A DNA stretch of 42,162 bases from Clostridiales bacterium (GTDB lineage: Bacteria; Bacillota; Clostridia; Christensenellales; CAG-138), in NCBI GenBank assembly GCA_012838425.1, contig DUPG01000005.1:1-42162 (forward strand), in the 5' to 3' direction. The notes under the pieces are model-generated. The model did not search any database and was not told the origin of the DNA. It was given only the letters and a program-made list of their open reading frames with translations. A program made the translations under genes and the position numbers. Within the stretch, counting starts at the first letter, position 1; every line of letters begins with the position of its first letter. This document shows positions 2 to 42,162 of the stretch, in pieces.

Positions 2-139
2 ATCGCCATTGTAGGCGATTATTCAAAATACGCAAGCAAGCCGCCAAAAGATTTTATTTACGGAAGCAACAACGGCAGCAGCATTTTCTTCGTGCCAAGC
101 ATAGATGATGCCTTGCGTATGTTAGACAACGCAAAATAG
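2..139 (+). CDS. 3' end of a DUF4180-like protein (partial)
   Basis: Only the last 45 codons are inside the window; the frame is open from base 2 to a TAG at 137-139. The visible tail contains IVGDYSKY, then a KDFIYGSNNG block, FFV, and a terminal DALRML helix. This matches my recollection of the C-terminal pattern of the small DUF4180 family of Firmicutes (IVGDFS.Y.SK..RDFIYESN.G....FV...EA...L). The function of that family is unknown. The gene ends 14 bases before the convergent stop of the LysM-GH18 gene. The assignment rests on a short C-terminal stretch, so it is tentative. Confidence 0.6.
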   Translation: MAIVGDYSKYASKPPKDFIYGSNNGSSIFFVPSIDDALRMLDNAK

Positions 140-40595: not shown

Positions 40596-40625
40596 AACTG
40601 CTTGCATATGCGGGCAGTTTATTCA
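40596..40625 (+). terminator. Probable terminator of ftsK-rimO-pgsA
   Basis: A 10-bp stem with two G-U pairs, AACTGCTTGC/GCGGGCAGTT (40596-40605 with 40610-40619), ATAT loop, followed by a T-rich stretch. It starts 36 bases after the pgsA stop. Confidence 0.75.
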
Positions 40626-40940: not shown

Positions 40941-40968
40941 TTGACAATCAGTGAAAATCCCTTATGAT
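40941..40968 (+). promoter_or_regulatory. SigA-like promoter of the prepilin-like gene
   Basis: Perfect TTGACA (40941-40946), 16-base spacer, TATGAT (40963-40968). It implies an untranslated leader of roughly 65-70 bases before the ATG. Confidence 0.65.
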
Positions 40969-41042: not shown

Positions 41043-42162
41043 ATGAAAATGAAGAAGCGTGGTTTTACACTAACAGAAATGGTTGTAACTCTTGCAGTTA
41101 TCGGAATACTTATAGCTATACTGCTTCCTGTGTTTTCAAATGTAATAGCAAAAGCACACGCAAAGTCTGCGCTGTCTGACGCGCGCAACTCTTTGACTTC
41201 TTTCATTACTCAGAACATGGAGAAGATGGACGGTAAGATTGCAAAGAGCGTAGTTATATTCGTAAAAAAAGCGAATATGTACTATGTTTTTGGCTATCAT
41301 ACAACAGGCGAGGACAGGGGCAAGCTGATGCAGTCTGCCGGCAATCCGTATAACTACGATAGCCTTGCGAGCTTGATCTATGCCTTTAACTGTCCCGATA
41401 TAAATATTATAGGTACAGAAGAAGAAAGCAATTACGCATTCTACCTGTATCCGCATGACAAGCCTTCGGGGACTATCACATTGGGCACAAAGAGCGCAGA
41501 TCCCATGGAACGCGTTAACGCTCAATTCATCAATCTTACAGATAAGATTCCCAACATACCGTACTCAACTCAAGTTTTTGACGGCTTCCTTATCGGCATG
41601 GTAGTAGATACGCACACAAACAACGATAAGGTTACTAACGGCCCCGGCGGCAAGCTGCCCACAGGCTCATTCTCAGTTACATATCTGCCCGGCGCGCCCG
41701 AAAGCGAGGTAACTAATATGCCCGATCCGCGTTCATACACAGTGAAGGCAGGCGGCTCGCATGAAATAGTTTCTATGCCCTTGCGCGAAGGATATGATTT
41801 CGCAGGCTGGTTAGATGTTAGCAGCGGCGCAGTTTATACAGCAAGCGGTCAATATATACAGAACATTACAGGCAACATAATGCTTATCGCACAATGGACA
41901 AAATCCGAAGTGCCTGCGCAGGATCCTACATTGACTTTCGTTGCAAACGGCGCTACTCTCAACCTGTTTAACGGATTTACGAACGGTTCAAGCATACCGC
42001 GCGGCACTGATATTAACTACATAATCACGGGTTCGACAGCTTCAAAGCCCGGCGAGGAATTCTTGGGTTGGAAGTCGGGCGAAGCAATTTATAAGACCAC
42101 ACATACTGCCCCAATACTAATATTTGAAGATATGACGCTTACAGCAGTATGGAAGGAAAAGC
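41043..42162 (+). CDS. Prepilin-like protein with InlB B-repeat (Flg_new-type) modules, 3' truncated by window end
   Basis: 373 residues are visible and the frame is still open at the window edge. The N-terminus is a class III/type IV prepilin signal: basic MKMKKRG, then FTLTEMVVTL with Glu at +5 and a long hydrophobic helix (VIGILIAILLPVF), to be cut after Gly7 by a prepilin peptidase. A globular part follows (about 35-215). Two InlB B-repeat/Listeria-Bacteroides-type modules come next, about 225-285 (ending GYDFAGW...LIAQW) and about 300-370 (ending FLGW...LTAVW). Repeats of this type occur in surface proteins. A pseudopilin or surface-displayed pilin-like protein is likely. GAGG lies about 16 bases before the ATG, a long spacing. 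The complete length and partners are outside the window. Confidence 0.85.
   Translation, partial: MKMKKRGFTLTEMVVTLAVIGILIAILLPVFSNVIAKAHAKSALSDARNSLTSFITQNMEKMDGKIAKSVVIFVKKANMYYVFGYHTTGEDRGKLMQSAGNPYNYDSLASLIYAFNCPDINIIGTEEESNYAFYLYPHDKPSGTITLGTKSADPMERVNAQFINLTDKIPNIPYSTQVFDGFLIGMVVDTHTNNDKVTNGPGGKLPTGSFSVTYLPGAPESEVTNMPDPRSYTVKAGGSHEIVSMPLREGYDFAGWLDVSSGAVYTASGQYIQNITGNIMLIAQWTKSEVPAQDPTLTFVANGATLNLFNGFTNGSSIPRGTDINYIITGSTASKPGEEFLGWKSGEAIYKTTHTAPILIFEDMTLTAVWKEK

Follow-up and report, generated by a model that had tools for sequence, protein, structure and literature searches.

Modular pilins have been a described kind since 2021, when a survey reported more than 1,200 of them in 264 architectures, including a prepilin joined to IPR011493, and adhesion was demonstrated for PilB of Streptococcus sanguinis (Raynaud 2021, PMC8179133). 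Large modular minor pilins had already been proposed as adhesins in monoderms (Pelicic 2019, PMC6916266), and the question at stake is whether such pilins are confined to the tip or occur along the shaft, and how many sorts of them a pilus contains. Here we describe a modular prepilin from an uncultured Clostridiales bacterium (GCA_012838425.1), where what is new is a large set of paralogues with variable stalk length. As presented in the main text of the survey, PilB and PilC of S. sanguinis likewise consist of a class III leader and a pilin module linked to a bulky functional module. Compared with the modular pilins described in that main text (PMC8179133), the proteins described here have a putative repeat stalk between base and tip, reach total lengths of 1050-1879 aa as against 860 aa for the multi-domain extreme given there, and have about 20 paralogues in one 1.48-Mb genome. 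ComZ of Thermus thermophilus offers a further likeness, being a minor pilin with a beta-solenoid module (PMC8179133); in that account no B-repeat stalk is described for ComZ, nor is it a large gene family. The main text of the survey does not name B-repeats, and a literature search returned no paper describing a prepilin paired with a B-repeat or Flg_new. We thus found no description of a B-repeat stalk combined with an expansion to about 20 genes in a small genome, and the architecture itself may stand in the supplement of the 2021 survey.

Proteins with the InlB B-repeat, or Listeria-Bacteroides repeat (PF09479), share the repeat with the window protein, which carries it in tandem and above the curated cut-off. 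In contrast to InlB-type proteins, however, the window protein has neither leucine-rich repeats nor GW modules (Pfam gave no match to the leucine-rich repeat internalin domain or to GW modules in the 1050-aa protein at E ≤ 0.001), and its anchor is a prepilin rather than GW modules or LPXTG. GLUG repeats (PF07581, whose InterPro entry we take to be IPR011493) are common to the GLUG-motif proteins and to the C-terminal part of the window protein. The motif also occurs in the N-terminal regions of M26 IgA1 proteases, whereas the window protein has no peptidase domain and carries its GLUG repeats on a prepilin. Finally, other uncultured Clostridia of gut and rumen commonly encode proteins of 400-1600 aa with a prepilin leader (loci L080-L155), and the window protein therefore belongs to a wider, little-studied group; most of those proteins match it in the leader and helix only and not over the whole pilin module.

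A prepilin leader followed by tandem B-repeats

The window, by which we mean the whole stretch of DNA analysed (42,162 nucleotides), is the entire contig C17 of a genome of 1.48 Mb in 35 contigs that is 94.8% complete. Its last open reading frame starts at position 41043 and stays open for 373 residues up to the window end, with no stop (Table 1). The N-terminus, MKMKKRGFTLTEM, is a class III prepilin leader with a cleavage motif, followed by a hydrophobic helix with a glutamate at mature position 5 (E5), and the motif predicts cleavage by PilD between G7 and F8.

A first-pass annotation of this DNA had read the frame as a type IV prepilin leader joined to at least two B-repeat modules within residues 225-373. 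Both parts of that reading were confirmed by profile searches: Pfam N_methyl matches residues 3-28 (E = 1.4e-7, 31.2 bits, cut-off 21.2), Flg_new, the InlB B-repeat family, matches two stretches (E = 3.9e-10, 40.1 bits, cut-off 27), and the NCBIfam models TIGR02532 and TIGR02543 each score above their own cut-offs. The modules as mapped (residues 210-283 and 296-368) lie near the zone proposed. Furthermore, when a B-repeat HMM was made from further proteins of this genome, the window protein being left out, it gave the window protein 35.0 bits, far above the maximum of 10.0 bits among 1000 shuffled versions. The suggestion that the repeats take the place of the pilin domain has to be dropped, as a conserved pilin module of about 190 residues precedes them.

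Probable continuation of the gene on a second contig

The window ends in 127 bases that recur without a mismatch at the end of contig C19 (3015 bp), read on its reverse strand (locus L021), and this exact overlap suggests that the assembler worked with k=127. The joined gene measures 3153 nt and encodes 1050 aa, so that the frame, for which a stop shortly after the window had been considered, continues to residue 1050, and C19 adds the further repeats expected past position 42162 in the form of three B-repeats and a GLUG region. The order along the protein is a pilin module (residues 1-190), a linker, five B-repeats, a stretch at about 605-700 with no domain assigned, GLUG repeats and a C-terminal tail; leaving aside the contig join, this anatomy is near certain. 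Pfam assigns Flg_new (E = 2.6e-35), GLUG (E = 1.3e-8; 35.2 bits, cut-off 20.5) and N_methyl (E = 4.9e-7), and the domains fused C-terminally to the pilin part, Flg_new and GLUG, are not pilus-specific, as is the case for modular type IV pilins. The closest full-length relative, a protein of 1007 aa from the congener MAG Clostridiales bacterium AS10tlH2TH_161, likewise has five B-repeats, at much the same positions, and is 38% identical in an alignment that spans almost all of its length.

Upstream, a promoter-like site and a terminator-like hairpin stand between the prepilin gene and the genes that precede it, which by inspection of their translations are the housekeeping genes for FtsK/SpoIIIE-type, RimO and PgsA proteins. 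The first-pass claim that the gene has its own promoter and follows a housekeeping operon accordingly holds, for the promoter as a pattern match (11 of 12 positions of a sigma-70-like site). Its further proposal, that the gene marks the edge of an accessory region, is borne out in part: a second prepilin starts about 0.7 kb downstream and runs off C19, but prepilin places are scattered over the genome rather than gathered here. We also looked for pgsA, for the purpose of synteny, in the incomplete congener genome and did not find it.

Table 1. Coordinates of the features of the window and of the joined protein, and domain content of the prepilin places in the genome.
Feature	Window position	Strand	Residues	Location or basis
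Terminator-like hairpin after pgsA, closing the ftsK-rimO-pgsA group	40596..40619	+		consensus match only
Promoter-like site, TTGACA-16-TATGAT, 11/12 matches	40941..40968	+		sigma-70-like consensus match only
Modular prepilin gene, runs off window end	41043..42162	+	1-373 of 1050	
Leader peptide MKMKKRG, class III	41043..41063	+		N_methyl / TIGR02532 matches
Hydrophobic N-terminal part of helix alpha-1; mature E5 and P22 present	41064..41129	+		
Pilin module	41043..41612	+	1-190	32-59% identity to paralogues and congener proteins
Linker, pilin module to B-repeat 1	41613..41669	+	191-209	sequence
B-repeat 1	41670..41891	+	210-283	
B-repeat 2	41928..42146	+	296-368	
Exact overlap with end of contig C19, 127 bp	42036..42162	+		nowhere else in assembly
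B-repeats 3-5			375-440, 446-513, 524-595	on C19
GLUG region			~780-970	on C19
B-repeat arrays with or without GLUG, 5 prepilins				window, two on C2, C25:5989, C28
GLUG without B-repeat array, 5 prepilins				C20, C26, C33, C6, C25:95915
Big_2 passenger, 3 prepilins				C23, C30, C9
Periplasmic binding protein domain, 1 prepilin				C25:49765
No further Pfam match, 3 prepilins				two on C34, C7
Cut by contig ends, 2 prepilins				C5, C19
Short or fragmentary, 5 prepilins				four in C8 pilus cluster

A conserved base with varying passengers

N_methyl places number 24 on 16 contigs of the genome, a count to which fragments at contig ends and one duplicated leader contribute, and the true gene number may thus differ by a few. 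More pilin-like genes, which the first pass had proposed to look for, are thus present at about 23 other places. Relatives were detected by a profile scan of the genome_contigs collection; a scan of that collection with the single protein gave none. Across the paralogues the pilin module is kept and the remainder varies, taking the form of B-repeats, GLUG, Big_2 or a periplasmic-binding domain, and prepilins have 0 to 9 B-repeats each in this genome, with up to 12 in the congener. Base and passenger appear to behave as separate units, most clearly in the C20 protein, which lacks B-repeats and whose identity to the window protein is 59% over the pilin module and 37% over the C-terminal region. 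E5 was found in 44 of 44 prepilins examined, in a search whose pattern admitted only E or D there, and P22, which was free of such selection, in 42 of 44; the two residues are typical of filament-forming pilins.

In a tree of the pilin modules, in which several forks are weakly supported, the genes of the two congeneric genomes stand side by side as orthologous pairs. At least part of the set is therefore older than the species split, and the pairing suggests that the set is old and maintained. Gene conversion among the paralogues found no support, as the tree shows no sign of within-genome homogenising. In a sample of the order comprising 198 genomes with completeness of at least 90%, 147 have no prepilins, and none of the others exceeds 15, compared with 24 here. 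Numerous matches to the pilin module were confined, among 41 genomes, to this genome (22), the congener (19) and one more (14), a goat rectum MAG of the same family.

One prepilin place, C25:49765-51102 (L017:6766-8103), joins the leader to Peripla_BP_2 (E = 1.3e-35) and has a similar protein in the congener (G001:C235:3838); its predicted product is a substrate-binding protein mounted on a pilin base. Interruptions occur in two modular prepilin genes: in one an in-frame TAG at C28:65542 (L022:7249-10041), in the other a frameshift near C25:96287 that lies within the pilin module (L018:6916-8897). Decay, assembly error or variation are all possible for both. In addition, five contig ends (C17, C19, C2, C5, C9) fall inside prepilin genes, which suggests that the gene family helps to fragment the assembly.

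Pilus machinery and other possible display systems

The prepilin peptidase and the PilB/PilC-type assembly genes that had also been proposed as a check are found on contig C8, which encodes PilB (T2SSE, 447 bits), PilC (a T2SSF match) and PilD (above the Pfam cut-offs for both peptidase A24 domains) together with several small prepilins. PilT is encoded on C2 (TIGR01420, 409 bits, cut-off 319), about 100 bp behind a modular prepilin of 1056 aa, and PilB, PilC, PilD and PilT are thus all present in the genome of the window gene. The PilM/N/O families gave no match in the C8 cluster. At the right end of C8 (L011:17621-18779) the prepilin start MLHFSSKRGFTIIEIAIALIVISIL occurs twice in tandem, the second copy stopping after 27 aa, which makes the identity of the major pilin uncertain.

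Outside the prepilins, most B-repeat proteins have a dockerin type I domain, of which the genome has 26 places, and the dockerin/B-repeat proteins lie on C27:2012-6931, C29, C1, C33, C8, C28, C30, C11 and C6 (L029, L030, L022). This suggests two routes for the display of B-repeats, on a pilin base or by way of a dockerin. Cohesins are found on a small lipoprotein (C1, L170:1483-2253) and on a subtilase of 1721 aa with a PA domain and a C-terminal membrane anchor (C25, L171:2198-7360), and these proteins could form a small docking system, either cellulosome-like or based on the protease. We also considered whether cohesins are tied to prepilins and rejected this, as the cohesins are carried by the lipoprotein, the membrane-anchored subtilase and dockerin proteins, and by none of the prepilins.

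Structure prediction

AlphaFold gave a mean pLDDT of 47.5 for the window ORF (5 rows) and 35.4 for the full-length congener protein (3 rows), and the low-confidence model has a helix at residues 10-58. With the AlphaFold models, no Foldseek match reached E ≤ 0.001 and no VIA-align match exceeded Z 2.5; pilin chains were among the weak matches of a low-confidence model at Z 2.2-2.5. A profile match to the PDB covered the helix alone, and residues 207-1050 had no match in a sequence search of the PDB. These poor models and weak fold matches confirmed neither the pilin fold nor a beta-helix; the GLUG region is probably a beta-helix.

Discussion

We propose that the window gene encodes a large modular type IV pilin presenting a stalked adhesin tip. 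The probability that we attach to this, roughly 0.7, is for the whole chain of anatomy, PilD cleavage, entry into a type 4a pilus, B-repeat spacer and GLUG tip. In this scheme PilD would cut after G7, and a type 4a pilus would take up the pilin module, whether as a minor subunit, as a tip subunit or sparsely along the shaft. The B-repeats would act as a length-variable spacer, and the GLUG region, as a probable beta-helix, would form the adhesive tip. A variable number of B-repeats on a constant base, together with their absence from the C20 protein, fits a spacer better than a binding domain, and it is the GLUG region, at the tip, that probably binds. With about 20 proteins encoded that differ in passenger but have related bases, the pili of this bacterium would show varied binding modules. 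The first-pass picture of an elongated display or adhesion part on a pilin-like anchor thus stands as regards the elongated architecture, with its 1050 aa, five B-repeats and GLUG region; the adhesion is what we infer.

Points against this proposal are that the C8 cluster gave no PilM/N/O match, and protein size, as masses of 100-190 kDa may hamper packing or passage through the cell wall. The same large size, up to 1879 aa in the congener, favours an arrangement that we think unlikely, in which leader and module serve as a membrane anchor only and the B-repeat stalk projects through the wall with no entry into a pilus. The prepilin with a periplasmic binding protein domain, a domain usually found on membrane-tethered lipoproteins, would suit such an anchor, as would the display of B-repeat proteins by other routes in this genome, for example through dockerins. 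However, the genome has genes for type 4a machinery, among them one for PilT next to a modular prepilin, the prepilins retain E5 and P22 as filament pilins typically do, and a simple anchor would have no need of a conserved 190-aa module.

Nor does it seem probable that antigenic or phase variation draws on the paralogues as a recombination reservoir, with broken copies donating passengers to an expressed locus; we consider this very unlikely. The two interrupted copies (the C28 TAG and the C25 frameshift), the tandem placement of some genes and the five contig ends within prepilin genes are what such a reservoir might produce, but the pilin modules of this genome and the congener interleave as orthologous pairs and do not cluster by genome, DNA identity among the copies is just about 70-85% even in the leader region, and most copies have intact frames. 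That the window protein is instead a pseudopilin of a secretion system is scarcely credible. In favour of it, the leader also matches GspG/GspH models, below their cut-offs; against it, the genome's other ATPase besides PilB scores above the cut-off as a PilT-family retraction ATPase, of a kind that secretion systems do not have, the lineage looks monoderm (a SpoIIIAA-like gene and sortases were seen), and the B-repeat and GLUG passengers are display domains.

Returning to the modular pilin with a stalked tip, a bolder extension would make the type IV pilus the main surface-display platform of this genus, with about 20 giant pilins bearing interchangeable passengers on one machine and with B-repeats (0-12) tuning the stalk. 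We recognised no small major pilin of ordinary size, and the filaments might therefore consist largely of modular subunits; we regard this extension as doubtful, and put it forward tentatively. A set of about 20 modular pilins with a related base and graded stalk length would in any case make testable both their placement, at the tip or on the shaft, and the number of pilin types that a single pilus holds. The set also suggests that pili serve for display in uncultured Clostridia of gut and digester more than has been recognised.
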